Below, one piece after another: positions 2,699 through 41,435 of a stretch of DNA of 41,435 nucleotides. The stretch lies in the IMG/VR virus record IMGVR_UViG_3300028920_000141, positions 1 through 41,435 of that record. One strand, 5' to 3'. A program made the translations under genes and the position numbers. Every line of letters starts with the position of its first letter. The stretch's first letter is position 1. The stretch comes from a virus. The notes beneath the pieces are model-generated. The model saw only the letters and a program-made list of their open reading frames with translations. It did no database searches and was not told the DNA's origin.

Positions 2699-3137
2699 TA
2701 TCGACCCGGGACTGAACACTGGTATCGCCGTGTGGAGTCGCAACGGTCGGTTGAAGTTCACCGACCTCTGCAAGTGTCCGAAGATCACCGACGACTGCGT
2801 ACGTGTCGGTGTGCTGTGTTCGTGGGTGTACGCCCGGCTCCTGGCTCTGCCAGATGGTCCGGTGTACATCGAGGGTGTGAGGTCGTTTGCGTCAGCCCGT
2901 TCATGGGCGGCCAGTACACGTGGAAACCTATCGCTACTCGCCTACATCGTCGGGGGGTACATCAGAGTATGTCAGGAGTTAGGAAGAGCAGTATACGTCA
3001 TAGACCCGCAGTGGAAGGGTCAGCTGACAGAGAAGGCGCTCGAGTTGAGAATCAGACGGGCGGGCATCGCACAGCCGCTGGGCGACCATGTACGCGAGGC
3101 AGTCGGTCTTGGTCTGAGTGTGTTGCAGAGGCTATAG
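2691..3137 (+). CDS. RuvC-like Holliday junction resolvase (148 aa)
   Basis: RNase H-fold nuclease. SIDPGLNTG at the N-terminus supplies the first catalytic Asp (D5), VYIEGV supplies E61, and the C-terminal DHVREAVGLGL supplies D132 and a further acidic residue. Length and motif order fit phage RuvC/RusA-replacing resolvases that cut branched DNA before packaging. The start overlaps the helicase gene. The end leads straight into the uracil-DNA glycosylase in another frame. Confidence 0.8.
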   Translation: MVSIDPGLNTGIAVWSRNGRLKFTDLCKCPKITDDCVRVGVLCSWVYARLLALPDGPVYIEGVRSFASARSWAASTRGNLSLLAYIVGGYIRVCQELGRAVYVIDPQWKGQLTEKALELRIRRAGIAQPLGDHVREAVGLGLSVLQRL

Positions 3138-3628
3138 GATGTACACGTTGTCGCCTTCACTCGACGCGCCGCAATGTGGTACTGGGCAGAGGGGAGTTAC
3201 CCTGTGATGTCTTATTCGTGGGCGAGGGGCCGGGACAGGTGGAGGACACATTGGGCGAGGCGTTTGTCGGGCCGAGCGGCAGGCTCCTCGACCAGATGCT
3301 CCGAGAGGCAGAGTGCCGACTCAGGTGCGCCTTCACAAACGTGGTTCTCTGTCACCCTACAGATCATCCGCGCGGCGACAACCGTACTCCTTACCCTGAC
3401 GAGGTACTCGCTTGCCTGCCTCACGTCCTCGAAGTCGTACGGGCGGCGAGTCCGAGACTTGTGGTCTTTGTGGGTGACGTGTCTGAGCGTTACCTACAGC
3501 GTCATATCGATGGTGTTCGTATGCTTCATCCTGCGGCTCTACTACGCAAAGGTGGGCGCGCGGCGCCACACTACGATAGAGTAGTCACTCAACTATGGAG
3601 GTGGTTCAATGTCGATCTGGCCCGATGA
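2969..3628 (+). CDS. Family 4 (4Fe-4S) uracil-DNA glycosylase; start uncertain
   Basis: The homologous part begins near 3122 (VAEAIGCTRCRL). It has the cluster cysteines CTRC, then C in VVLCHP and C in ACLPH. Motif A is GEGPGQVEDTLGEAFVG and motif B is HPAAL. These are hallmarks of type 4 and 5 UDGs, which remove uracil from DNA. No ATG, GTG or TTG lies in frame near the expected N-terminus. The nearest are GTG 3011 and ATG 2969, which would add about 40-50 residues read through the RuvC gene in a second frame. Initiation at a non-canonical codon, or a -1 frameshift from the RuvC-like gene, is possible. The gene overlaps the next one by 20 bases. Confidence 0.75.
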   Translation: MSGVRKSSIRHRPAVEGSADREGARVENQTGGHRTAAGRPCTRGSRSWSECVAEAIGCTRCRLHSTRRNVVLGRGELPCDVLFVGEGPGQVEDTLGEAFVGPSGRLLDQMLREAECRLRCAFTNVVLCHPTDHPRGDNRTPYPDEVLACLPHVLEVVRAASPRLVVFVGDVSERYLQRHIDGVRMLHPAALLRKGGRAAPHYDRVVTQLWRWFNVDLAR

Positions 3629-11330: not shown

Positions 11331-11969
11331 GTGCCTGCGAAGAAGAAGAAGGAGCAGACAGTCAAGACAGGTGGTGCGTTCCCCGTCAATCGGGACTCAC
11401 AGTACTATCTGATACCACACCCCCTGCAGGCGTTGGCGGTACCCATCTCGAGCGTCAAGCTCTGGAAGAAGAACCCCCGCGCGAACGACGAGGCCGCGAA
11501 GAAGTTGGCGACCATCATCGAGGAGCATGGATTCCGGATCCCGGTGGTCATCGACTCGAACGGTATCATCATGGCGGGCAACACGAGGTACAAGGCCGCA
11601 AAACTTCTGGGCATGAAGAAGATACCCGCAGTCAAGCAGGAGTTCGTGAGTGAGGCACAGGCGACTGCGTTCGCCCTCGCCGACAACAAGGCGAGCGAGT
11701 GGTCCACCTGGGACGACGACCTTCTCGCCGACCTGTTCGGTGCCAAGTCGTTCGAGGGGTACAAGGGTCGCACGGGGTTCAGTGACGCCGAGCGCCGGGC
11801 TATCACGATGGAACCGGACATCGACCGCATCAACAAGATCAAGTCGAAGGAGTCTGGTATCAAGGGGAAGATGATCGTGCTCGTGATGGACATGGCACAG
11901 CGCGACGAGATCAAGGAGATGTTGAAGCTATGGGTGGAATCAAAAGGCCTAAACGTCGAGATCAAGTAA
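11331..11969 (+). CDS. ParB/Srx-fold domain protein (212 aa)
   Basis: GTG 11331 follows AGGAGGT. After a basic N-terminus (MPAKKKKEQ), residues about 35-105 have the ParB N-terminal fold: SVKLWKKNPR, then IIMAGNTRYKAAKLLG, matching the conserved GxxRxxA box. Phage proteins of this type are variously nucleases, CTP-dependent switches or companions of DNA-modifying enzymes. It overlaps the dpdA-like gene by 40 bases and belongs to the same transcription unit, suggesting a role in targeting or checking DNA modification. That link is inference. Confidence 0.75.
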   Translation: MPAKKKKEQTVKTGGAFPVNRDSQYYLIPHPLQALAVPISSVKLWKKNPRANDEAAKKLATIIEEHGFRIPVVIDSNGIIMAGNTRYKAAKLLGMKKIPAVKQEFVSEAQATAFALADNKASEWSTWDDDLLADLFGAKSFEGYKGRTGFSDAERRAITMEPDIDRINKIKSKESGIKGKMIVLVMDMAQRDEIKEMLKLWVESKGLNVEIK

Positions 11970-12835
11970 AGTGGCGAGTACCACTCCTGATCTCGTACGC
12001 GTACTGGAATAAGAACACGGCGCGCGACCTGTTGGCGTGGGGTCCCGAGCACTTCCGTCTGTTCCTCGACAGCGGGGCGTTCACCGCACACAAGCAGGGG
12101 AAGCAGGTAGACTTCGACGAGTACTGCGCGTTCGTGAAGTCACCGCCAGTGCCCGTCGAGAGATACTTCATGCTCGACGTGATCGGGGACCCGACCGCCA
12201 CGAAGAAGAACCTGGACCGGATGTTGCAACGGGGTTTAAACCCCATCCCCGTGTTCACCCGTGGTGAAGATGTCAAGACGCTCGACGAGTTCTATGCGGT
12301 GTCTGACCTCGTGGGTCTGGGCGGAGTGGCTGGTACTCCCGGTGCGGCGGCTTACGTCAAGTGGTTCGAGGAGGACGTACGTCAGGGCCGGCCGATACAC
12401 TGGCTGGGGTTCGCCAACCGTGACTTCGTGTTGTACTTCAAGCCGACATCGTTCGACTCGACCTCGTGGGTCAACGGCTGTCGGTACGGGTTCATTCAGT
12501 TCTTCCACGATGGGTGGAAGAAGGCAGAGCGCAAGGACATCCTCGCCGGCAAGTTCCGCCGGCAGGTCACAGAGTTGGGCTTCGACTACGGTGAGTTGAA
12601 GAAGGAGGTCAACTGGCGCCGACAGCAGAGGCTCTGCTCGACAGGTCAGATCACCGCGGCGAGTTGGTTGAGGTGGGCCAAGCGGCTCGAGACGATACCA
12701 TCGACGGCGGTCGCGGCGATACACCCTGACCTTGACATACCGAACATTACCGTGGCGTACGCCGCCTGCGAGAGTGGGTCGGCCGACTCGTCACACAACA
12801 ACCTGCAACGCGCATACGAAAGGGGTGACACGTGA
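11930..12835 (+). CDS. dpdA: DpdA-like DNA 7-deazaguanine transglycosylase (301 aa)
   Basis: A TIM-barrel relative of tRNA-guanine transglycosylase that exchanges guanine in DNA for a 7-deazaguanine base. Visible landmarks are FLDSGAF (D47), MLDVIGD (D83), GLGGVAGTPG (129-138) and FDSTSWVNGCRYG (D176, the likely nucleophile). Immediate neighbours are queC, queD, queE and folE, which make preQ0. No QueF or amidotransferase-fused QueC is present, so preQ0 itself is the expected inserted base. A GTTTAAAC site is at 12234. AAGGAG lies upstream of ATG 11930. Confidence 0.85.
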   Translation: MGGIKRPKRRDQVKWRVPLLISYAYWNKNTARDLLAWGPEHFRLFLDSGAFTAHKQGKQVDFDEYCAFVKSPPVPVERYFMLDVIGDPTATKKNLDRMLQRGLNPIPVFTRGEDVKTLDEFYAVSDLVGLGGVAGTPGAAAYVKWFEEDVRQGRPIHWLGFANRDFVLYFKPTSFDSTSWVNGCRYGFIQFFHDGWKKAERKDILAGKFRRQVTELGFDYGELKKEVNWRRQQRLCSTGQITAASWLRWAKRLETIPSTAVAAIHPDLDIPNITVAYAACESGSADSSHNNLQRAYERGDT

Positions 12836-13500
12836 AGGTTCTTCATGTACTCAGCGGCGGGCTCGACAGCACGGTGCTGTTGGCAGACAACGTAGCACAG
12901 CACGGGGCTGGTAACGTGGTGTGCGTCAACTTCTCGTACGGGTCCAAACACAACGACCGTGAGCGGGCCGCCGCCATACTCGTGACCCAGCATTACAAGG
13001 TCACACTCGTCAAGGTCGAACTGCACCTGCGTGGGTTCAAGAGCACACTGATGTACGAGGGCGGTGAGATACCCGAAGGTCACTATGAGGACGAGACGAT
13101 GCGCTCGACGGTCGTACCCTTCCGCAACGGTATCATGTTGTCGTACGCGGTGGGCATGGCGGAGTCGATGGGGCTCGAACTCGTGACGATCGGTGCGCAC
13201 TCAGGCGATCACGCAATCTACCCCGACTGTACCCCTGAGTTCATACACGCGATGGATTCTGCCGCGGCCCTGGGAACGTACAAGTGTGTACACATCGTCG
13301 CCCCGTTCAGTGACATGGACAAGGCTGAGATCGTCAAGGCTGGGTTCGAGTTGAACGCACCTATGCACCTGACGTACACCTGCTACAACGGTGGGCGAAA
13401 GCACTGCGGTCGGTGTGGGGCGTGTGTCGAACGGGCCGAAGCGTTTACCTTGGCGGGGGTCGAGGACCCGACCCAGTGGGAGGAACCATGTTCCGAGTGA
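12832..13500 (+). CDS. queC: QueC, 7-cyano-7-deazaguanine (preQ0) synthase (222 aa)
   Basis: ATP-dependent conversion of CDG (7-carboxy-7-deazaguanine) to preQ0. The PP-loop is SGGLDS (8-13). A C-terminal zinc site is formed by C184, C192, C195 and C198 (CGRCGACVERAEAF). Standard family length; no fused amidotransferase domain. GTG 12832 overlaps the dpdA stop (GTGA) and its end overlaps queD, so translation is coupled. Confidence 0.95.
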   Translation: MKVLHVLSGGLDSTVLLADNVAQHGAGNVVCVNFSYGSKHNDRERAAAILVTQHYKVTLVKVELHLRGFKSTLMYEGGEIPEGHYEDETMRSTVVPFRNGIMLSYAVGMAESMGLELVTIGAHSGDHAIYPDCTPEFIHAMDSAAALGTYKCVHIVAPFSDMDKAEIVKAGFELNAPMHLTYTCYNGGRKHCGRCGACVERAEAFTLAGVEDPTQWEEPCSE

Positions 13501-13823
13501 CGAAGAGGATGGAAGTCGCCGGCGCTCATCATCTCAACCTGCCGTACGAAAGCCCGTGCACCTACCCGCACGGCCACAACTGGGTCATCGAGATCACGAT
13601 GGAGTGTGACGACGATAGTCTGAGCGACTACGGTATGGTGTATGACTTCGCCCTCATCAAGCGAGAGATACACGGGCGACTCGACCACCGGACGATCAAC
13701 GAGTACGTCGAACAGCCCACCGCCGAGAACATCGCCAAGTGGATCTGCGACCTACTGGGTGAGGCATGCACGCAGGTGATGGTACAAGAGAGTGAGGGCA
13801 ACCGCGCATGGTATATAAGGTAA
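13488..13823 (+). CDS. queD: QueD, 6-carboxy-5,6,7,8-tetrahydropterin synthase (111 aa)
   Basis: Makes the tetrahydropterin precursor of CDG from the FolE product. Zinc ligands are H14, H28 and H30 (AGAHH, then PHGHNW), with catalytic C24 (SPCTYPHGH). LDHRTIN and PTAENIAKWI are typical of the family. ATG 13488 has GGGAGGA just upstream. It overlaps queC and queE. Confidence 0.95.
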   Translation: MFRVTKRMEVAGAHHLNLPYESPCTYPHGHNWVIEITMECDDDSLSDYGMVYDFALIKREIHGRLDHRTINEYVEQPTAENIAKWICDLLGEACTQVMVQESEGNRAWYIR

Positions 13824-14392
13824 ACGAGGTCTTTCGGTCGGTGCAGGGAGAGGGCATCGACACGGGGAGGTCGGCCGTGTTCATACGGCTGGCGGGGTGC
13901 AGTGTGTGGTGTGACTTCTGTGACACCGACCACACCTGCAAGTTCAAAGCGAAGGAGCAGGAGTTGATCAGAATGGTGACTGACCTGACCACCGCGCAGG
14001 GGGAACTCGTCGTCATCACTGGTGGCGAACCGCTCGAGCAGAACTGCCGACCTCTGTACACGGCGCTCTCCTCCCTACGGTATGACGTGACGTTCGAGAC
14101 GAGTGGCACGGTACGGTTCCCGGCGTGGTGTCCGACGACCCGTTTAAACGTCTCGCCGAAAGGGAACTGGCACGTGTACGACGACACGTGTGTGCGGTCG
14201 CTGAAACTGTTGTACCCGTTCCAAGAGAGGGCGACACCCTGGGACGTGCGACACTTCGACGCTCTATGGTATGGTATTCAACCCATCGACGGTGTGGAGG
14301 GCTCGTTCGATGGGGCTCTGACTGAGGTCAGACGATACGGCCCTCCTTGGCGTGTGTCAGTACAGACGCACAAACTCGTGGGGGTACGATGA
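13808..14392 (+). CDS. queE: QueE, 7-carboxy-7-deazaguanine synthase (194 aa)
   Basis: Radical SAM enzyme that contracts the pterin ring to CDG. C31-x3-C35-x2-C38 (CSVWCDFCD) binds the 4Fe-4S cluster, TGGEPL is the SAM-binding strand, and the N-terminal SVQGEG motif is characteristic of QueE. A GTTTAAAC site is at 14142 in the Leu-Asn frame. It starts inside queD and ends overlapping the folE fusion gene. Confidence 0.95.
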
Positions 14393-15267
14393 TGTCGGAG
14401 ATGCTAAAGAACTCAGAGGTGATGAAGATGGTCGTGAAGATGGCGAGCGACCACGACCTGCCGACCGGGGCGAGGATCTACGGGGTACCCCGCGGTGGTG
14501 TACCCGTGGCGTACCTTCTCGCCCCAGTGCTTGCCGGCACCGTGGTTGACCGACCTGAGGACGCCACCATCATCGTGGACGACCTCATCGACTCAGGTGC
14601 GACGATGACGTGGTACCTCGACAACTACCCGGACACACCCTTCGTCGCCCTGCTCGACAAACGCAACCAGGAGCATCAGACGTGGTACGTGTTTCCCTGG
14701 GAGGGTACGGTCGAGGGGTCTGCTGAGGACATCCCCACACGGCTCCTGCAGTACCTTGGCGAGGACGTGAGCCGTGACGGTCTGGTGGACACCCCCGCGC
14801 GGTTCCTCAAGGCGTGGGGTGAACTGACAGCCGGATACAAGGTAGACCCGAAGTCGTACCTGGAGCGGTCGTTCAGCAACGAGGCGGGGTACGACCAGAT
14901 GGTGATACTGCGAGACATCGAAGTGTGTTCGGTGTGCGAGCACCACCTGCTACCGTTCGTCGGCAAGGCACACGTGGCCTACATCCCCAGCGCCGATGGG
15001 CGGGTGGTCGGTATCTCGAAGCTGGCCCGTCTGGTCGATGGGTACGCCCGACGACTACAGATACAGGAACGGTTGACCCAGGAGGTCGCCGGAGCCCTGG
15101 AGGAATGCTTGAACCCGAAGGGTGTTGCGGTGTTCATCGAGGCACAGCACCTGTGTATGCGAGCCCGTGGTGTACGTGAGCGTGACAGTGTGATGGTCAC
15201 GTCAGCCATCCGCGGGGCGTTCGTCAACGAGCCGGCCCGGCTCGAGTTCCTTCTGTTGCGACAGTAG
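14389..15267 (+). CDS. folE: Phosphoribosyltransferase-GTP cyclohydrolase I fusion (292 aa)
   Basis: Residues 1-110 are a type I phosphoribosyltransferase domain with the PRPP loop [12 protein letters not shown] (61-72) and YGVPRGG (31-37). Residues 115-292 are FolE, which opens GTP to dihydroneopterin triphosphate, the first step towards preQ0. Zinc ligands are C183 and H185-H186 (CEHHLLPF) and C256 ([12 protein letters not shown]). FolE is usually encoded alone. The fused transferase could recycle a purine base to nucleotide for the pathway; that is inference. Last gene of the early unit. Confidence 0.9.
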
Positions 15268-15300: not shown

Positions 15301-15336
15301 GTGAAAACAATGACTTACGAGAAGAGCGCCCCGCTT

Positions 15337-15475
15337 GTTAATACGAAGTTAATACCGAAAGAGGGTACTGGTGACTACTATCTGAGTGTAGTTTACAAAT
15401 AATAATTATACATATACACACAGACAGACATACGGCAGGAGCTAGTACCCTCTTTGGGTATTAAGGTTATATTAA
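15337..15475. repeat. Control element copy 2, reverse orientation to the copy at the window start
   Basis: The left arm (15337-15368) has TTAATAC at 15338 and 15349 followed by CCGAAAGAGGGTAC. The right arm (15445-15475), on the other strand, has TTAATAC and a one-mismatch copy, again 11 bp apart, with AAGAGGGTAC. The core 15380-15408 (ATCTGAGTGTAGTTTACAAA and onward) is the reverse complement of the core at 81-108. Together the two elements bracket the 0.3-15.3 kb early region. The 229-base gap they occupy has no convincing gene. Confidence 0.8.
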
Positions 15476-15496
15476 GAACTGGGTAGGGGGTGGGTG

Positions 15497-30455: not shown

Positions 30456-30496
30456 TCACTGACTAGGCGGCGGCACTAACCATGGAGGGCGGCTCT

Positions 30497-31585
30497 ATGG
30501 GTGGCGGTTTTGTTAAGTGCAAGGTCATCGACGAAAACATGCGGCGACACCTTGGCGACTTCGCTTTCTACGACGAAGCCAAAGCTCAGGAGCTGTCCTC
30601 ACTGGGACTTGTTGAGGTACCATCAGAGGCAGGGGGCGAGTCAGACTCACTCACTCGCGACACCCATACTGGCCGCGCCCCCGCCTCACCCCCTTCCGGC
30701 GCTCCGACCTACCTGACACGAGGAGCCGGCTACCGTGAGGATTCGGTCGGCTACCGTGTCGCGTGGATACAAGACTTCAGCAAGGTCGGCGGTGCCGAAC
30801 TCAGCAACTATGAGGTCGTGCGAGTAGGCGAGGACATCGGGTACGACATCATCGGTGTCACCCCTTCGCTGTTTGACACTCGCGCACTCGAGCAGGCTGA
30901 CATCGTGATCGTCAACAACTGCTTCGAGTTCAGCGGCCCGCAACTCACAACGATACGACAGTTCCTACACGAGAAGCGTGTGCCGTACGTGAAGTACGAA
31001 CACGACTATCGGGAACTACGCCGTTTAAACATCTCGCGTCCCCTGTTCCGCGACGCCTCGCTCGTGGTGTTCATCTCGCCACGACATCGAGACGAGCACG
31101 GCGCGTCACTTGGGTGGGAGGCGACCGCTCGTTCTATCTGTCTGCCTCTCGCGATGAACCCGGACATCTATGGTCCTGTGAAGGGCGTCGAGCGTGAGAA
31201 GGGGCTGACACTGGTCCCCGCGTTGAAGAAGGTAGACCCGAAGGTGCTAGAGAAGTACCTGGACGAGAACCCGCGGCGTGACCTGCTTCTCCTTGGCCAG
31301 TGCCAGGCACCTCTGCCAGCGGGTCGTGTCAGACATCACAAGAAAGTGCCGACGACTGACATGCCGGCAGTGTACTCGCAGTGCGAGTTCATGTTGCACC
31401 AGCCTCGCCAGAAGTGGGCCGGCGAGCGAATCTATTTCGAGGCTCTGCTGTGTGGGTGTGAACCCATCGTGAACGACAACGTAGGACACGCCAGCTGGGA
31501 CTACGACCGCAACGACTTGTCTCAGGTCCTCGCAGAAGCCCCGACGACATTCTGGGGAGCGGTCGAGGAGGTGCTACATGGGTAG
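30497..31585 (+). CDS. GT-B glycosyltransferase with N-terminal head-protein-like domain (362 aa)
   Basis: Residues 1-45 (VKCKVIDENMRRHLGDFAFY, then QELSSLGLVEV) look like the small proteins often found right after phage capsid genes. A Pro/Ser-rich linker follows (about 46-75). Residues 80-362 are a glycosyltransferase family 4-type domain (WIQDFSKVGGAELSNYEVV; C-terminal GERIYFEALLCGCEPIVND, the nucleotide-sugar site). ATG 30497 has GGAGGG 7 bases upstream; ATG 30482 is an alternative. A GTTTAAAC site is at 31023. First gene of the glycan cluster. Confidence 0.8.
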   Translation: MGGGFVKCKVIDENMRRHLGDFAFYDEAKAQELSSLGLVEVPSEAGGESDSLTRDTHTGRAPASPPSGAPTYLTRGAGYREDSVGYRVAWIQDFSKVGGAELSNYEVVRVGEDIGYDIIGVTPSLFDTRALEQADIVIVNNCFEFSGPQLTTIRQFLHEKRVPYVKYEHDYRELRRLNISRPLFRDASLVVFISPRHRDEHGASLGWEATARSICLPLAMNPDIYGPVKGVEREKGLTLVPALKKVDPKVLEKYLDENPRRDLLLLGQCQAPLPAGRVRHHKKVPTTDMPAVYSQCEFMLHQPRQKWAGERIYFEALLCGCEPIVNDNVGHASWDYDRNDLSQVLAEAPTTFWGAVEEVLHG

Positions 31586-32183
31586 ACACCTCCCGGTCGT
31601 CGTACCGTTTAAAGAGGGTCAGCAGATTGGCCGCGCGTACAACCGTGAGATGGAACGACTGCCCGATGACGGATGGACAGTGTTCCTCGACTACGATGTG
31701 ATGATCATGAACCCACACTGGCACGAGATCTGCTGTCGAGCAATCAATCGTGTGGGCGACCGCGCGGGCCTCATCACCTGCTTCACGAACCGTATCGGGT
31801 GCAAGACTCAGGTGGCTCCCGGTGTTGACCCGGACAACTTCGACATGCACTATCATCGGGAGTTCGCCCGCAAGTTGTGGCAGACCAGGAAGGGGACCAT
31901 ACACGACCACACCGACACGCGAGGGTGTCGCTTCTCCGGGTTCTTCATGTTGACGAGTCGTCGTGCCTGGGAGCGGGCTGGTCGGTTCAAAACCGACAGC
32001 TTCTTCCACGTTGACGTTGACTACTACGACAAGGTGAAGCGAGCCGGTATGCGTGTGTACCTGTTGGAGGATCTCTACTGCTTCCACATGTACTTGCGTG
32101 AGGTGTTGTCGCCATTCTTCACGGAGGATCCGAATGCGCAGGTCAAAGAAAATCCCCGCACGCCGAAACAAGTCACGGTCTAA
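31578..32183 (+). CDS. GT-A (family 2-like) glycosyltransferase (201 aa)
   Basis: The metal-binding DxD is DYD (FLDYDVMIM, about 38-40). Later, FSGFFMLTSRRAWERAGRF and HVDVDYYDKVKRAG give the acceptor and catalytic region. A compact single-domain enzyme without membrane segments. It contains GTTTAAAG at 31607, a one-mismatch relative of the palindrome. Starts within the end of the previous gene. Confidence 0.8.
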   Translation: MGRHLPVVVPFKEGQQIGRAYNREMERLPDDGWTVFLDYDVMIMNPHWHEICCRAINRVGDRAGLITCFTNRIGCKTQVAPGVDPDNFDMHYHREFARKLWQTRKGTIHDHTDTRGCRFSGFFMLTSRRAWERAGRFKTDSFFHVDVDYYDKVKRAGMRVYLLEDLYCFHMYLREVLSPFFTEDPNAQVKENPRTPKQVTV

Positions 32184-32197
32184 GGAGAAGGGTGAGT

Positions 32198-33139
32198 ATG
32201 GATTCCACCGTGGCGTACTTCAAAAACGGAATCGGAAACTGGGTGCTGATGACACCAGCACTGAGAGCGATGGCGAGCATGACTGACAGCGGCACGGTTG
32301 ATATGGTCATCGATGGTGATTGGTCGGACTCACGCACGCCGGCGATACTCGACCTCGTTGAGTCGTCGCCGTTCGTGGGTAAGATCATGCGGTACCCATC
32401 GCAGGCACTCAACCCCCGCAAGTACGGTCGGTGGTTCTACTCACGCCACAGCGAAGGGTCAGCCGCCCTGCAGTTCTTCGAGACGAAGAACCCGACGACA
32501 GGTCACCGTATCAACTGGCGGGCGTCACTGGTACACGAGATGGACTACTACATGAACATCGCCCGCATGGGGTTCGGGTACAAGGGCGAGACGCCACTGC
32601 AGTACGTGAAGCGACTCGACTCTCTACCCGCGGGTGTCGCCCGGGCGTTCGACAGCCGCAACAGGTGGGTAGCCCTGTGCAACGGGGGCTTCGCGCGTAT
32701 GCGCGGCCCGAAGTGTTGGCCCCACTTCAACGAACTCGCCAGTGCCTTGCGCAAGCGGTACGGTGTGTCGATCGTCGGGGTAGGTGCGAAGGGTGAGTTG
32801 GCGGGGGTCAAGCTCGACCTCGACCTGACCGGAGAGCTTTCGATCCTCGAGACGGCTCGAGTGCTTTGCGGTGAGGTCGATCACTTCGTGACGACTGACA
32901 CAGGGCTGATGCACATAGCAGACGCCCTGGAGGTGAACATGACCGTGCTGTTCGGTGGCAGTATCGTATCGAAGAACGGACCAGTGAACCACACGGCGAC
33001 CATCGTCCGGGCAGACCTGGGATGTGTACCGTGTCAGTACGTGGGTGACTTCGAGAAGTGCAGGGACCCGCAGTGTATGTCACGTTTGAAGGTGGGGCAG
33101 GTCATGCGAGCCCTGTCCCGGTGGGGTGAGTCACTATGA
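32198..33139 (+). CDS. Family 9 (heptosyltransferase-like) glycosyltransferase (313 aa)
   Basis: GT-B enzyme with the family 9 signature FVTTDTGLMHIADALEVNMT and a C-terminal cysteine cluster (GCVPCQYVGDFEKCRDPQC) like that of ADP-heptose transferases. N-terminus GIGNWVLMTPALRAM is typical. GTG 32192 (AAGGAG 4 bases upstream) is an equally possible start. It transfers a sugar, identity unknown, to a growing glycan. Confidence 0.85.
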   Translation: MDSTVAYFKNGIGNWVLMTPALRAMASMTDSGTVDMVIDGDWSDSRTPAILDLVESSPFVGKIMRYPSQALNPRKYGRWFYSRHSEGSAALQFFETKNPTTGHRINWRASLVHEMDYYMNIARMGFGYKGETPLQYVKRLDSLPAGVARAFDSRNRWVALCNGGFARMRGPKCWPHFNELASALRKRYGVSIVGVGAKGELAGVKLDLDLTGELSILETARVLCGEVDHFVTTDTGLMHIADALEVNMTVLFGGSIVSKNGPVNHTATIVRADLGCVPCQYVGDFEKCRDPQCMSRLKVGQVMRALSRWGESL

Positions 33140-33906
33140 GCCGTCTGAAACACGAAGAAGCGATCGCACACATGCGGCAGGCTGTCGTGAGTGGTCGCCC
33201 GTACATGTTCGCGCGGTACGGTGACGGCGAGGGTCTGGTGTTGGGGTTCCCTGAGAGGACGCCCCTCCACAAGTATCGCGCCCGGCTTGACAAGTGGTTC
33301 GGCAGTGACGGTATGTCGATGCCCCAACTGGTGACGCTCGCCGACAACATGCGTGAGAGTGTGAAGCATTGCGACCTCGTAGGTCTGCCAGAGCGACGAC
33401 ACCACGAGATGGACTCGAACTGGCGGAGCGTCGAACCGTACATGAAGCGGTACCAGTTGATCAACGGTCAGAAGGTCTGCGGGATGGACGCCGTGTTGTG
33501 GTTGCAGAGGCGCCGCTACCTTCCCAAGTTGTTGGCTGGTGTCGAGACTCTGTGCTGTATCACCTGCCGTAACGTCCGTAAGGAACTGAAGCGAGTCTGT
33601 CACGGGCTGAAACGTGTCGAGATGTTTTACCTGCCACCGCAGAAGCGACCGCAGATGGGACCCGACATGGCGAACGGGCAGAGACACTACCCGACACTGT
33701 ACCTGGAGATCCCCAAGTGGCTCGACGTGGTATGCAAGCCGGGTCAGGTGGTTCTCATCGGGGCAGGTGGTCTGGGTAAGCTCTACGCCCAGATGGTGAA
33801 AGAGCGCGGCGGTGTTGCGCTCGACGTGGGTAGTCTGTTCGATGGGTGGGCGGGGCTAAACACTCGCTCGCACATTCGGAACGAACCGATGACGTGGAGA
33901 CTGTAA
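33136..33906 (+). CDS. GT-D fold glycosyltransferase, paralogue 1 (256 aa)
   Basis: The DGE motif (FARYGDGEGLV, about 26-36) and the C-terminal VLIGAGGLGKLYAQMVKERG with DVGSLFDGW are characteristic of GT-D (DUF1792-type) enzymes known from serine-rich protein glycosylation loci. The next gene encodes a diverged paralogue, suggesting tandem duplication. It overlaps the previous gene by 4 bases. Confidence 0.8.
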   Translation: MSRLKHEEAIAHMRQAVVSGRPYMFARYGDGEGLVLGFPERTPLHKYRARLDKWFGSDGMSMPQLVTLADNMRESVKHCDLVGLPERRHHEMDSNWRSVEPYMKRYQLINGQKVCGMDAVLWLQRRRYLPKLLAGVETLCCITCRNVRKELKRVCHGLKRVEMFYLPPQKRPQMGPDMANGQRHYPTLYLEIPKWLDVVCKPGQVVLIGAGGLGKLYAQMVKERGGVALDVGSLFDGWAGLNTRSHIRNEPMTWRL

Positions 33907-34721
33907 TGGCGTTGACATGGCTCAAGCCAGAACAACTTGATCAGGCGCTCCTCTCTCGCCTAGACGATGGTACGCCGTTCACCCTCTTGCGGTTCGGTGA
34001 CGGTGAGTACGAGGTGTGCAAGCATGTCGTCGGCGCCAGTCACAATGATGTCGAGTTCATCGACAAGTTCCGCAGGTGGTTCGGTGCCGAACGAGTCGGT
34101 CGAATCAAGCACGCGGATCTGATGGGGCTCGGCGCGAGGATCCTCGAGGCGTTTAAACACTGCACATTCCTGGGTATCCCCTCGTTCCGCGAGGCGTACT
34201 CGTACCCGAAGTGGCGGGGCGTGGACAAGTTCGTGAACAAGCACTTGCCCAACGGCATCACGTTCCACTTCCACGATGTCCTCGCCCTGTGGCGTCGCTG
34301 GAGTACGTTGAAAGAGATCCTCGGGAACCGTGAACACGTTGACCTGATCACGTGCCGGCCCAGACTACGAGAGAAACTACACGACCGCTTCCCGAACCTC
34401 GAACACGTGGGTATGGAACTGCTACAGCCTGAGTACTTTCTCTGGAAACGAGACAACAGCGGACTGCAGAAGTACATCGACGCCTGGGAAGGGGCGCCAC
34501 ACTACCCGAACAGGTACAACGAGATCTGTGACTCGCTTCATCGACAGGCACCACTCAACGGTCGCTTGTTCCTCGTGGGTGCCGGCGGGCTAGGGAAGAT
34601 CTACTGCGAGGTGGTTCGGTCGCTGGGTGGTATCGCGTTCGACCTGGGAGCCCTGCTCGACGGGTGGGACGGGCTGATCACTCGACCGTACCTCGAATCG
34701 ATACAGGAGTTCAGACTATGA
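33906..34721 (+). CDS. GT-D fold glycosyltransferase, paralogue 2 (271 aa)
   Basis: Same layout as its neighbour: LLRFGDGEYEV at the N-terminus and LFLVGAGGLGKIYCEVVRSL with DLGALLDGWDG at the C-terminus. The middle has diverged. ATG 33906 overlaps the previous stop. A GTTTAAAC site is at 34151. Two GT-D enzymes in a row suggest successive additions of sugars to a protein-linked glycan. Confidence 0.8.
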   Translation: MALTWLKPEQLDQALLSRLDDGTPFTLLRFGDGEYEVCKHVVGASHNDVEFIDKFRRWFGAERVGRIKHADLMGLGARILEAFKHCTFLGIPSFREAYSYPKWRGVDKFVNKHLPNGITFHFHDVLALWRRWSTLKEILGNREHVDLITCRPRLREKLHDRFPNLEHVGMELLQPEYFLWKRDNSGLQKYIDAWEGAPHYPNRYNEICDSLHRQAPLNGRLFLVGAGGLGKIYCEVVRSLGGIAFDLGALLDGWDGLITRPYLESIQEFRL

Positions 34722-35431
34722 TCGAAGGTATCAACATATTCCTACCGTCACGCGGACGACCGGACAGGCTGACCAAGTTCCTCGAGTCGATGCAGGAGAC
34801 AGCCACCAGCCCCGACCGCCTGCACGTGGTGTTCGTCCTCGACGTTGGCGACCAGGAGTCGCTCGACGCCGTGAAGGTGTGTAAGGTGAGTTCGCAGGTT
34901 GAGTGGGTACTCGACACGGGCAAGCCGCACCTCGCCAATCTGTACAACCGTTGCTTCGACAGAACCATACGCGGGGGAGACGAGTGGGCCGTGAGCATGT
35001 TCGGCGATGACATGGTGTTCGCCAGCGAAGGGTGGGACGTGCGGTTCGTCAACGAGATGAACAACGCCGAAGGGAAGGCGATCGTGTTCGGCGATGACGA
35101 CTACATTCAGCACGGCAAACTCCCGGTACACCTCGTCGTTCCGCGGCCCCTCGTCAGGGCTACGGGCCGACCGTTCATGGCGCCAGAGTTCCGGGCTGAC
35201 ATGATCGACACAGTGTGGCAGGTCGTGGGGAAGAAGTGCGGCCTGCTCCGGTACCTCGAGGACGTTCACATCAGACACGAACACAACAGTCAATTGCCCG
35301 CCGACCAACGCGACGAAACTTGGAGACGTTTAAACGCCGTGAAGATGCACCAAGGCAAGGGCTACAAACTGGTTGAGGAGATCGCAACTGGCATCGCCGC
35401 CAACTTGAAGGAGGCAGGATATGTCGGGTAA
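34718..35431 (+). CDS. GT-A (family 2-like) glycosyltransferase (237 aa)
   Basis: FLPSRGRPDRLTKFLESMQE at the N-terminus and the metal-site SMFGDDMVF (about 91-99) are typical of GT2-like enzymes; a later FGDDDYIQHG supports this. ATG 34718 has AGGAG upstream. A GTTTAAAC site is at 35328. Overlaps its neighbours on both sides. Confidence 0.75.
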   Translation: MIEGINIFLPSRGRPDRLTKFLESMQETATSPDRLHVVFVLDVGDQESLDAVKVCKVSSQVEWVLDTGKPHLANLYNRCFDRTIRGGDEWAVSMFGDDMVFASEGWDVRFVNEMNNAEGKAIVFGDDDYIQHGKLPVHLVVPRPLVRATGRPFMAPEFRADMIDTVWQVVGKKCGLLRYLEDVHIRHEHNSQLPADQRDETWRRLNAVKMHQGKGYKLVEEIATGIAANLKEAGYVG

Positions 35432-36140
35432 GAATATCATCGCATTCTCTGTCTGGGGAGACGACCCAGTGTACACACGTGGGGCCATCTCGAACCTCGT
35501 GCTACGTGAGAGGTTTTACCCCGATTGGGAGTACCGCTTCTATCTCGATCCACGACGACCCCCCAACATGGTCAAATTGGGTCGGGAAATCGAGGAGCGA
35601 GGGGGTGCTATCTCGTTTGACGGCCCGGAGGGTCCTCCCGGTAGGGTCGGGCTCTACTGGAGACTTGCGGCCCTCTTTGACGAGGGGGTTGATCACGTAC
35701 TGTTCCGCGACACCGACAGTCGGCCCAGCGACCGCGAGGCTGTGTGCGTGTTCGAGTGGTTGCAGTCGGACTGTCCGGTTCACGTCATCAGGGACCACCG
35801 CTCACACACCGCACCGCTCATGGGCGGTCTATGGGGCTGTGTGCCGGCGGCCGTACGTGAGATGGTACCAGACCTGCGTGAGCAGTTCGACGCGCGTCTG
35901 CAGTACGTGTTGACGACACCAATGGCGAACAGCAAGCCGCGGGTGGGACACCTACCGTTCAGCGACCAGGAGTTCCTCGCCGATACGATATGGCCGTGTG
36001 TGAAGGGTGACACGTTCGTTCACGACGAGAGCACCGCTCCTGGTCGTGGTGGGCACCCGTTCACGGTGCCGACCCTTCACCCGTCTCAGTTCTGCGGTCA
36101 GGCCTACAACGTGCAGGGAGTACCGAAGTGGAAAGTGTGA
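35421..36140 (+). CDS. GT-A fold glycosyltransferase-like protein (239 aa)
   Basis: NIIAFSVWGDDPVYTRGAIS at the N-terminus and LFRDTDSRPSDREA (DTD, about 95) match capsular-polysaccharide-type GT-A transferases. HVIRDHRSHTAPLMGGLWG is a conserved second block. AAGGAGG lies upstream of ATG 35421. Confidence 0.7.
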   Translation: MSGKNIIAFSVWGDDPVYTRGAISNLVLRERFYPDWEYRFYLDPRRPPNMVKLGREIEERGGAISFDGPEGPPGRVGLYWRLAALFDEGVDHVLFRDTDSRPSDREAVCVFEWLQSDCPVHVIRDHRSHTAPLMGGLWGCVPAAVREMVPDLREQFDARLQYVLTTPMANSKPRVGHLPFSDQEFLADTIWPCVKGDTFVHDESTAPGRGGHPFTVPTLHPSQFCGQAYNVQGVPKWKV

Positions 36141-36171
36141 GCCTCGCAACGATCGGACGTTTGGAGAAGGT

Positions 36172-36747
36172 ATGAGCGAGTTGCATCTCATCACGACTGG
36201 CGGCACGGGTACCTACGCGATCGAGGAGTGGGGCCGACCGAACTGGAGCGAGAGTAGACTTCGCGCACACACCCGTTCGCCCAGCGCCCCGGCTACTGGT
36301 GATCGAGTGCTGTACGTGTTCGGTGATCCTCGCAATCAGCTGTTGTCGTTCTTCCACCGTGGGTTTATGAAGGCGCCGTACACACACTGCCAGAACGTGA
36401 ACGGCAACGTGAACTATCTGGGAACCCGCAAGTCGTGGTCGCTCGAGAGCTACCTGCAAGAGGAGTATGACGCGTACCAGTTGTACGAACATCTGCAGGG
36501 GTGGTTGTCACACCACGCGCGTGACTACTCGATCATGTTCGTACGGTACGAGGCGATAGCCAAGACGAGCGTGCGCCGACAGTTGAGGGAGTTCGTCGGC
36601 CAGTACAGACCGTTCGAGTTCAAGCCGCGCGCAAGTAACTTCGAGGGGTTGTCGGCTTCCCTGCGTCAATCGATCGATCGTATGTTCTCTCACATGGTAC
36701 TGCTCACGAGTCAACTGCCAGACGTAACGGAGATACGATGCTACTGA
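36172..36747 (+). CDS. Sulfotransferase-like protein (191 aa)
   Basis: HLITTGGTGTYAIEEW near the N-terminus could be the phosphosulfate-binding loop. LYVFGDPRNQLLSFFHRGF resembles the RDPRxxxxS 3'-phosphate motif of sulfotransferases, and IMFVRYEAI the conserved RYE-L block. Sulfation of glycans would fit its place among glycosyltransferases. The first loop is not canonical, so this is a moderate call. ATG 36172 follows GGAGAAGG. Confidence 0.5.
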   Translation: MSELHLITTGGTGTYAIEEWGRPNWSESRLRAHTRSPSAPATGDRVLYVFGDPRNQLLSFFHRGFMKAPYTHCQNVNGNVNYLGTRKSWSLESYLQEEYDAYQLYEHLQGWLSHHARDYSIMFVRYEAIAKTSVRRQLREFVGQYRPFEFKPRASNFEGLSASLRQSIDRMFSHMVLLTSQLPDVTEIRCY

Positions 36748-37595
36748 TAGTACAGAGCAAGGGCAAGCACCGACCGAACTTGCGGTACCGTGAGTGCGAA
36801 TGTCTGGCACGCGCGTTCACCCGGCTCGGTGTGAAGTCTCAGGTGACAGGTCTGGGCTACGAGTCGTTTGACTGTTGGAACGATCTCATCGCGCAGGCCT
36901 CGTCGGTTCTCGTCCTCGAGAACTACGGCATGCTCGAGTGGTTGCCCAAGACACTGACGCACATCAACGTCCCTAAAGTGTTCTGGTGTATCGACAGTCA
37001 CGTGGCGCTGAAGCGACACCTGCGTGAGTGTGACACGTACCAGTTCGACATGGTGCTATGCTCAGTCGGGGCGCACGTTGACAAGTTCGGTGATCGGGCG
37101 CTCTGGATGCCCAACGCGTACCCGTCTGATCTCATCGGCCCGAACGCCGACATCCGCAAGCGACATGATGTCGGGTTCTGTGGGAACTGGGTCAGAGGTC
37201 GTCGCGAGTTCTACGACAACGTGATGATGCGCGAGGTGCCTATACACACTGACATTATGGTACTGGGCGACTCGATGGTGCGTGCGATACAAGGCTACCG
37301 CATTCACCTCAACCGCAACCATAGTATCGACCTCAACTACAGGACATACGAAACACTGGGCGCCGGGACTTTCTTGCTCACGAACAAGACAGACCACCTC
37401 CTTGATCTGTTTAAACCCGGCGCCCACCTCGACACGTACGAGTCGGCTGACGACTGCGTTGAGAAGATACGACACTACATCAACCACCCCGACGAGCGTG
37501 AGGCGATTGCCAAGCGCGGCCACGAGGTCGTGAAGCAGTCACACACGTATGACGCCCGGGCGCGGTGGTTGCTTCGGAGAGGAGTCTTGCGATGA
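36738..37595 (+). CDS. GT-B (CgeB-like) glycosyltransferase (285 aa)
   Basis: The C-terminal half has the donor-site pattern of CgeB/Glyco_trans_1_2 enzymes: NYRTYETLGAGTFLLTNKTD, then HLDTYESADDCVEKI and HPDEREAIAKRGHEVV. The N-terminal half has VLVLENYGMLEWLPK and FWCIDSHVALK. A GTTTAAAC site is at 37409. Last gene of the glycan cluster; it overlaps the connector gene by 4 bases, so the cluster belongs to the structural operon. Confidence 0.8.
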   Translation: MLLIVQSKGKHRPNLRYRECECLARAFTRLGVKSQVTGLGYESFDCWNDLIAQASSVLVLENYGMLEWLPKTLTHINVPKVFWCIDSHVALKRHLRECDTYQFDMVLCSVGAHVDKFGDRALWMPNAYPSDLIGPNADIRKRHDVGFCGNWVRGRREFYDNVMMREVPIHTDIMVLGDSMVRAIQGYRIHLNRNHSIDLNYRTYETLGAGTFLLTNKTDHLLDLFKPGAHLDTYESADDCVEKIRHYINHPDEREAIAKRGHEVVKQSHTYDARARWLLRRGVLR

Positions 37596-39541: not shown

Positions 39542-40336
39542 ATGTCACGTTTCGGTCCCGATACCGACAACTATATCTTGGGAAAAGGCAAGGTCTATTT
39601 CGACCGCCTCGACTCAGATGGCAATCGGACGGGCGAGATTGATCTCGGCAACACTCCCGCGTTCACTCTGACACCTTCGATCGAGTCGCTCGATCACTAT
39701 GAGTCAATGAGCGGCATACGTGAGAAGGACAAGAGCGTGGACACCTCGATCGGTTTCACGGGGACGTTCACCCTCGATGAGTACGCGCGCGAGAACTTGA
39801 AGCTCGCTCTGATGAATGACGGTGGCGAAGCCAGCTACACGCAGGTCACTGGCCACCAGACCAACGAACCGATCACGGCTCGGCTGGGCAAGTGGGTGCC
39901 TCTGTCGAAGCGCAATGTCCACGCAGTCAACGTCACCGACAGTACGGGGACGGTGACGTATGTCGCCGACACCGACTACGCGGTGGACGCTTCGATCGGT
40001 CGCATCCGGGCAATCCCGGGCGGCTCGATCAGTGACGCGCAGGCTCTGCTCGTGGACTACAACTACGATGCGACCGAATACCCGAAGGTGTCTGCGCTGT
40101 CTGACAGCACCATCGAGGGCTACGTGCGTTTCGTAGGGGCGCCGGCAGTTGGCCCGACATACGAGCTCGAGATCTGGAGGGTCAAGATCAAGCCTTCGGG
40201 TGACATCCCCTGGATCACTGAGGAGTGGGGACAGATCCCGTTCGAGATGGAAGTGCTGAAAGACGCGGAGAACCACCCCAGCGAGCCGTGGTTCATCCTG
40301 ATTGACAAGACGACCAACGAGGCGACACAGTCGTAG
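39542..40336 (+). CDS. Major tail tube protein (264 aa)
   Basis: Starts MSRFGPDTDNYILGKGKVYF, continues with FTLTPSIESLDHYESMSGIR and SIGFTGTFTLDEYARENLKL, all typical of siphovirus tail tube subunits. The second half (TVTYVADTDYAVDASIGRI) resembles an added beta domain. GGGAGGTG precedes ATG 39542. The 33-base gap to the next gene holds only a ribosome binding site. Confidence 0.85.
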   Translation: MSRFGPDTDNYILGKGKVYFDRLDSDGNRTGEIDLGNTPAFTLTPSIESLDHYESMSGIREKDKSVDTSIGFTGTFTLDEYARENLKLALMNDGGEASYTQVTGHQTNEPITARLGKWVPLSKRNVHAVNVTDSTGTVTYVADTDYAVDASIGRIRAIPGGSISDAQALLVDYNYDATEYPKVSALSDSTIEGYVRFVGAPAVGPTYELEIWRVKIKPSGDIPWITEEWGQIPFEMEVLKDAENHPSEPWFILIDKTTNEATQS

Positions 40337-40369
40337 CGTAGGTCACAACCAACACGTGGAGGGCGTACG

Positions 40370-40843
40370 ATGGAACAGAGTAAGAAACCAGGAGTCAACA
40401 CACTGGTACCTGACCAGGAGATCGGCGGTCATGTGATACGACCGTGGACTCTGGCACAGGTGATAGAGTTGACCGACGACATCGAGGACACCGCAAAGAC
40501 GCTAGTCAAGGCCGGGCTGAGTATGGACAAGTTCCAAAAGGACCCGATGTCACTTGTGAAGGTGATTGCTCCTCGCCTTCCCAGGTACATCGGTGTCACG
40601 CTCGGTATACCAGAAGATGAGGCGGGTAGTCTCCCGGTAGGCGATGCGACTCTGATTGCTCTGACCATCGTGCGCCAGAATCTCAACCATCTAAAAAACT
40701 TGTTCGGCCCGGCGAACCAAGCACTGCGGGAGCTGGCACTCCTGATGACACTGAGTGGCAACTCGTCCGGGCCGTCGAAGGACTCATCGCCAGAGGACAC
40801 AACGAGCGAGCCGTCATCCACGAGTACGGACTTGACAAGCTAG
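40370..40843 (+). CDS. Tail assembly chaperone, short form (157 aa)
   Basis: Position between tail tube and tape measure, helical content, and the slippery site define the gpG-type chaperone. It binds the tape measure during tail assembly. The last 30 residues are Ser/Thr-rich (SSPEDTTSEPSSTSTDLTS). Confidence 0.85.
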   Translation: MEQSKKPGVNTLVPDQEIGGHVIRPWTLAQVIELTDDIEDTAKTLVKAGLSMDKFQKDPMSLVKVIAPRLPRYIGVTLGIPEDEAGSLPVGDATLIALTIVRQNLNHLKNLFGPANQALRELALLMTLSGNSSGPSKDSSPEDTTSEPSSTSTDLTS

Positions 40844-41007
40844 AGGCATACTTTATGGCTTCACAGGAGAACCTTCGCACCGAAGCACTGCGTGTTGCGA
40901 CCGCCCTCCACGCGCCAGATAAGCTGAGGAGCGGGGGTTCTCCCCAGCCACCCCAGAGCGGTAAGGAAAAGATCGCCAAGCTCGCGGAACTAGGGAAAGG
41001 TAAGTAA
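40370..41007 (+). CDS. Tail assembly chaperone, frameshifted long form (212 aa)
   Basis: The slippery heptamer A-AAA-AAC lies at 40693-40699 in the zero frame (CTA AAA AAC). A -1 slip leads into an open frame of 102 codons ending at TAA 41005-41007. The extension is charged and helical (WQLVRAVEGLIARGHNERAV, then KLEAYFMASQENLRTEALRV), like gpT of lambda gpG-GT. The -1 frame has no start of its own with a ribosome binding site near the slip. Confidence 0.85.
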
Positions 41008-41009
41008 CT

Positions 41010-41435
41010 ATGCCCGCCGACATTGCCGAACTGATCATACAACTGCGTGCCGACATCAGTGACCTCAAGACGAAGATGGGGACGGCTGAGAAGCAGACCA
41101 CGGGCTTTGCGAAGCGAGCAGGTGGGGCGCTCGACTCATTGAAGCAGAACTGGCTCGGTCTGACAGCCGCCACCGCTGGGTTCGTCATCGTCGCGCGTCG
41201 CTCGTTCCAGGCGTTCGCTGGGTTCGAGAACAAGATGCGCGAGACGAACACGCTGATGGGTCAGTCGGAGAAACAGTTTGCAGAGATGACAGAGGCAGTG
41301 CGGCAGATGTCAACGGCCCTGCCCCAGACCTCGACAGAGTTGGCGACAGCCTTGTACGACATCGTGTCGGCTGGTGTCGATGCGAGCAACGCTCTTGCGG
41401 TTCTCTACCGTTCGGCACAAGCGGCGACTGCTGGT
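41010..41435 (+). CDS. Tape measure protein, N-terminal part (cut by window end)
   Basis: ATG 41010, 2 bases after the frameshift product stop. The first 142 residues are present. ADISDLKTKMGTAEKQTTGF is followed by a hydrophobic stretch and FENKMRETNTLMGQSEKQFA, typical of TP901-type tape measure proteins, with STALPQTSTELATALYDIVS. Sets tail length. Confidence 0.85.
   Translation, partial: MPADIAELIIQLRADISDLKTKMGTAEKQTTGFAKRAGGALDSLKQNWLGLTAATAGFVIVARRSFQAFAGFENKMRETNTLMGQSEKQFAEMTEAVRQMSTALPQTSTELATALYDIVSAGVDASNALAVLYRSAQAATAG

Follow-up and report, generated by a model that had tools for sequence, protein, structure and literature searches.

Gene content of the cluster

We have analysed a 41,435-base virus record classed as linear (IMG/VR record IMGVR_UViG_3300028920_000141, hereafter the window), which carries a gene cluster predicted to make 7-cyano-7-deazaguanine (preQ0) and place it in phage DNA, and whose FolE protein bears an additional phosphoribosyltransferase (PRT) domain. 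Open reading frames and profile searches resolve six genes head to tail on the + strand at 11331-15267, in the order ParB-domain gene, DpdA, QueC, QueD, QueE and PRT-FolE fusion, with every neighbouring pair overlapping by 4 to 40 nt. Read from the sequence, the overlaps measure 40 nt (ParB/DpdA), 4 nt (DpdA/QueC), 13 nt (QueC/QueD), 16 nt (QueD/QueE) and 4 nt (QueE/FolE). An earlier note on this DNA had reported DpdA, QueC, QueD, QueE and FolE as head to tail and overlapping, and all five were recovered in that order and orientation with profile matches; its five-gene account did not, however, name the sixth, ParB-domain gene with which the interval begins.

The ParB_N/Srx-domain protein, DpdB-like by position, is encoded at 11331..11969 from a GTG start after AGGAGGT (PF02195, 4.8e-9; phrog_620, 6e-33). 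It is followed by the putative DNA-guanine transglycosylase DpdA at 11930..12835 (phrog_887, 1.8e-28), in which D47 (DSGAF) and D176 (DSTSW) are conserved, and by QueC at 12832..13500 (PF06508, 8e-57; TIGR00364 above cut-off), whose alignment retains the SGGLDST loop and the zinc cysteines. A short QueD (6-carboxytetrahydropterin synthase) of 111 aa at 13488..13823 (PF01242, 1.6e-21; TIGR03367, 4.4e-21, below the curated cut-off) keeps Cx3HGH, and a QueE of 194 aa at 13808..14392 (phrog_2076, 2.4e-27; TIGR04508, 5e-31, below the curated cut-off) keeps Cx3Cx2C as CSVWCDFC. The fused FolE gene completes the cluster, with its XGPRT-like PRT domain at 14389..14703 and its GTP cyclohydrolase I domain at 14704..15267. 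All six reading frames are open, and active-site motifs are kept in every pathway gene.

Megablast with the region as query matched no phage record. The same gene order, ParB, DpdA, QueC, QueD, QueE and FolE, occurs in genes 86-91 of Arthrobacter phage Sonali (MK411746), although the Sonali FolE lacks the PRT domain, its DpdA is 24% identical to that of the window in alignment, and the phage has a further short DpdA-like gene, gene 81. A close counterpart is IMGVR_UViG_3300044470_000442 (L013), an uncultured and unfinished record that shares the six-gene order including PRT-FolE, with identities of 60% for DpdA, 56% for PRT-FolE and 43% for ParB; another IMG/VR contig (L015) shows the same order. 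Because six neighbouring genes fit one pathway and their order recurs in Sonali, L013 and L015, the cluster is not a chance assembly. Judged by its genes, it adds a new and distant member to the known Rosebush/CAjan kind, and we consider it likely to be a working system for preQ0 insertion into DNA.

FolE is fused to an XGPRT-like domain

The earlier note had called the last gene FolE. This identification holds for the C-terminal domain, but the N-terminal PRT domain of the fusion had been missed. Residues 1-104 of this 291-292 aa open reading frame form a domain resembling xanthine-guanine phosphoribosyltransferase (XGPRT). Its relation to XGPRT is weak in a single-sequence search (E 0.006), while a profile of 50 relatives finds XGPRT structures at 5e-12. 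The AlphaFold2 (AF2) model of the whole fusion has a pLDDT of 95, and VIA-align places its PRT part on E. coli XGPRT 4jls with a Z of 13.9 and on Yersinia XGPRT 5xtk with a Z of 12.8 and a root-mean-square deviation (rmsd) of 2.2 Å over 105 residues. The Foldseek list for the same model contained FolE only; XGPRT surfaced via VIA-align and the PRT-only profile. The C-terminal part is an ordinary GTP cyclohydrolase I (PF01227, 2.2e-66; TIGR00063 above cut-off), which superposes on M. tuberculosis FolE 9p8z with a Z of 24.9 and an rmsd of 1.5 Å over 183 residues and whose zinc and active-site residues C182, H184, H185 and C255 are invariant in the aligned fusions.

Across 110 aligned fusions, conservation reaches 100% for D63, D64, D67, G69, W98 and E104 and 95% for K90. 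A HMMER alignment places D63, D64, D67, G69, W98 and K90 on XGPRT D88, D89, D92, G94, W134 and K115, residues that in XGPRT bind Mg-phosphoribosyl pyrophosphate (PRPP), serve as general base (D92, equivalent to D67 here) and contact guanine. The fused domain thus has a type I PRT fold with PRPP loop, general-base aspartate and guanine contacts, sharing fold and ligand-contact residues with E. coli Gpt (XGPRT, 1a95/4jls). Gpt, however, is a stand-alone enzyme with a flexible loop, whereas the window domain is fused and lacks this loop, for which reason we call it XGPRT-like rather than XGPRT. One stand-alone XGPRT-like protein inside a DpdA cluster (L163) keeps the full loop.

Distribution of the fusion

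PRT-FolE occurs in 33 annotated phage records (Pseudomonas, Vibrio, Stenotrophomonas, Xanthomonas, Variovorax and Sphingomonas phages), and DpdA adjoins it in all six of the phage regions read (NP1, Vibrio 1.207.B, VpKK5, VPv64, MMDA13 and PSASB_03). The fusions of the Queuovirinae NP1, VpKK5 and Quinobequin-P09 and of Sphingomonas phage MMDA13 are 44-51% identical to that of the window and are annotated only as GTP cyclohydrolase. NP1, VpKK5 and MMDA13 resemble the window in having DpdA beside PRT-FolE but differ from it in that the regions read contain no ParB gene; furthermore, the NP1 QueC is fused to a GATase domain and MMDA13 has a QueF-like gene, both unlike the window. The QueC of VpKK5 is unfused.

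More than 100 IMG/VR loci carry the fusion. DpdA lies within the fetched stretch in 76 of 80 such loci, the other four being loci of 4.8-10.3 kb. Among loci selected for DpdA that also hold FolE, the fused form is present in 25 of 70, and three loci have a stand-alone PRT in the cluster. In a set selected for FolE, PRT was found in 27/64 loci with DpdA against 2/16 others (Fisher p 0.04, a weak test because the loci are not independent); of the two exceptions, L195/L117 carries DpdA in another part of its contig, and the remaining one is a fragment of 7 kb. At least three fusions exist in the contigs of 84,980 species, two of them on DpdA-bearing contigs (L171 and L172, the L172 contig being as long as that of viral L071) and the third in Peribacteria; among the 18 genomes of that phylum sample that match FolE, no other has the fusion. 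Strict confinement of the fusion to DpdA genomes was considered and is rejected by the Peribacteria case, which lies beside folate genes without a DpdA being found.

No description of the PRT-FolE fusion was found in the open-access papers searched; Cui 2023 and Kot 2020 lie outside that scope, and a prior description is possible. The word 'phosphoribosyl' does not occur in the main text of Hutinet 2019, and the published account of the MMDA13 FolE makes no mention of a PRT domain.

DpdA and its ParB-like neighbour

A tblastn search with the window DpdA matched 219 phage records; no match covers more than 80% of the protein, and among the matches listed identity is at most about 34%. A search of IMG/VR with the single protein found nothing, and an alignment query was needed. 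By these comparisons the window DpdA is a distant family member. Ten aligned phage DpdAs share 15 invariant columns, including D47-S48 and D176-S177, and D47, S48, L82, D83, H157 and D176 remain invariant in 53 sequences. The AF2 model (pLDDT 87) gave no significant match in Foldseek, while in VIA-align the best 50 listed matches were all tRNA-guanine transglycosylases (Z about 14, rmsd about 3.7 Å, about 244 residues). A search with the family profile recovers 7ui4, a DNA-guanine transglycosylase of solved structure (E 1.2e-5), and D47 and D176 align with the aspartates in its DCGAF and DST. As modelled, the window DpdA has the tRNA-guanine transglycosylase fold with both catalytic aspartates present. 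The earlier note had named loss of key DpdA residues on structural modelling as evidence against its proposal; these residues are retained, since the model matches tRNA-guanine transglycosylases and both aspartates align with those of 7ui4. Some related loci contain a second DpdA or a short DpdA-like gene (L099, 6680-8719; L117, 6842-8469; L002, 3029-3646), and two DpdA genes in one locus possibly provide two exchange specificities.

Among 34 sampled loci that contain both DpdA and a ParB_N protein, the two lie within 400 bp of each other in 33. The ParB family profile matches the chromosomal ParB and Noc structures, and PADLOC returned for this gene only a methyltransferase model, the common part of which is the ParB domain. 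The DpdB of bacterial dpd islands has been described as a ParB-like ATPase that serves to insert preQ0 (PMC12839542), and a DpdB homologue has been proposed for phage CRB2 by its authors (PMC6392294). As in the window, a ParB-like gene adjoins DpdA and preQ0 genes in the Mycobacterium phages CRB2 and Typha (PMC6392294, PMC6884629), although Typha has no PRT fusion and no QueC listed. Based on the ParB domain and its adjacency to DpdA, we somewhat favour a DpdB-like role for the window protein. ParB adjacency and the PRT domain combine freely (30 loci with both, 37 with ParB only, 99 with PRT only and 42 with neither), as counted in overlapping locus sets whose selection introduces a bias.

A possible role for the PRT domain

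We propose that the six genes constitute a single operon for making preQ0 from GTP and placing it in the phage DNA. FolE, QueD, QueE and QueC would turn GTP into preQ0, and DpdA would excise guanine from DNA and insert preQ0, freeing one guanine per exchange. Like DpdB in bacterial dpd islands, the ParB-like protein may cooperate with DpdA on the DNA, either energising the exchange or targeting it. The fused PRT domain would then convert the freed guanine to GMP using PRPP, and host kinases would take GMP back to GTP, thereby refilling the substrate pool of FolE; removal of guanine would also free DpdA from a reaction product competing with preQ0. At an exchange of about 30% of guanines, as in Rosebush and CAjan, these 41 kb of DNA, with 24,545 G:C pairs, would free about 7,000 guanines per copy, and we infer that over a burst this is enough to matter as a competing product. 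Our tentative reading, to which we assign a probability of about 0.45, is that a guanine PRT domain, usually fused to FolE, may be a previously unnamed part of phage 7-deazaguanine clusters, recycling the guanine expelled by DpdA, driving the base exchange and feeding preQ0 synthesis.

Several observations weigh against this recycling role. The flexible catalytic loop of XGPRT (SSY..., about 24 residues) is absent from the fused domain, and catalysis is not assured because this is the loop that closes over the XGPRT active site. As GMP is not the substrate of FolE, direct channelling would not occur and host kinases would be needed. The PRT domain is absent from 42 of 68 DpdA-selected loci. 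In the Peribacteria contig (L173, 7923-8891), PRT-FolE stands beside dihydrofolate reductase and thymidylate synthase with no DpdA found, and the fusion is therefore not strictly a DNA-modification part; this case agrees with guanine salvage being linked more generally to the use of GTP by FolE. At the level of the whole cluster, the contig is unfinished and genes tailoring preQ0 may lie outside it, and expression and DNA modification are predictions from the genes.

The same loss of the catalytic loop, together with near-invariant ligand-contacting residues, is consistent with a non-enzymatic PRT domain that serves as a sensor, binding GMP, guanine or PRPP so as to tune the FolE decamer, in the manner of GFRP or PurR-type domains, with deoxy-preQ0 (dPreQ0) made as usual. 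The position of the domain on the first enzyme of the pathway, a usual site of control, would suit such a sensor, and titles of deposited structures describe control of mammalian FolE by its partner protein GFRP. However, the general-base D67 (XGPRT D92) is invariant in the 110 sequences, which would be needless for mere binding and argues for catalysis, and the stand-alone, full-loop protein L163 occurs in a DpdA cluster. We regard the sensor role as a serious but less likely alternative to guanine recycling.

The predicted base

QueF and GATase_2 families were not found in the contig by profile searches in which positive controls were detected, and the window QueC carries no GATase fusion. 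In the records of the two closest relatives, which are themselves linear and may be fragments, neither family appeared above cut-off; the weak QueF matches there fall within FolE, reflecting T-fold homology. DpdA with FolE, QueD, QueE and QueC, and without an amidotransferase or QueF, gave dPreQ0 in Rosebush and CAjan, the Rosebush DNA having been measured as such (PMC6884629). From the unfused QueC and the lack of QueF and GATase_2 in the contig, dPreQ0 is therefore the best, if provisional, prediction, and by analogy with these phages we think it quite probable that preQ0 is the final base. The preQ0 prediction of the earlier note accordingly follows the published gene-content logic, but its description of the cluster as complete was overstated, the contig being unfinished. 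Among the phages with which that note compared the window, phage 9g carries deoxyarchaeosine (dG+) and not preQ0.

The window stops soon after the major tail protein (40336-41435), and genes for tape measure, baseplate or lysis were not recognised in it, so that the genome is probably incomplete and the absence of QueF and GATase_2 is provisional. A gene in the unsequenced part, or a host enzyme, might thus convert preQ0 to 7-amido-7-deazaguanine (ADG), archaeosine (G+) or 7-aminomethyl-7-deazaguanine (preQ1). Phages with dPreQ1 and dG+ are known (PMC6884629), and dADG occurs in the DNA of phage MED16 (PMC8306585). Against this stand the unfused QueC and the failure to find QueF or GATase_2 in the window or, above cut-off, in its two closest relatives, and a base other than preQ0 is improbable.

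Charging of preQ0 to a ribonucleotide by the PRT domain, with part of the modification entering DNA through the nucleotide pool, appears very unlikely. In its favour, PRT domains act on guanine-like bases, preQ0 is such a base, and possible DpdA-independent 7-deazaguanine phages have been discussed (PMC6884629). But position 7 of preQ0 is a carbon, while it is N7 of guanine at which the general base of XGPRT acts. The domain moreover tracks DpdA, which would make a nucleotide-pool route needless: 28 of 29 PRT loci in the FolE-selected set have DpdA, either within the locus or elsewhere on the contig, the last being the 7 kb fragment. Least credible of all is a degenerate or unexpressed cluster, which the short QueD and QueE with their below-cut-off TIGR03367 and TIGR04508 scores could suggest, given active-site motifs in every gene, open frames, tight overlaps and the same gene set in the close relatives L013 and L015.

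Other features of the window

Directly after the cluster, an AT-rich gap holds a 40-nt inverted repeat (15330-15369 / 15444-15483, 80% complementary, 74 nt apart), which could have a role in regulation or replication. At 2732-3628 lies a gene for a family-4-like uracil-DNA glycosylase, in a phage with a DNA base-exchange cluster. About six or seven glycosyltransferase-like genes occupy 30482-37592, flanked by the genes for the major capsid and major tail proteins, and perhaps decorate virion proteins.

Implications for phage DNA modification

If guanine recycling is correct, the fused salvage domain would explain how phages sustain base exchange and spare purines. The recycling proposal makes a testable prediction for cultured phages such as NP1, whose 'FolE' has the same domain, and the pairing of ParB with DpdA makes the targeting or energising of phage DpdA a testable question.

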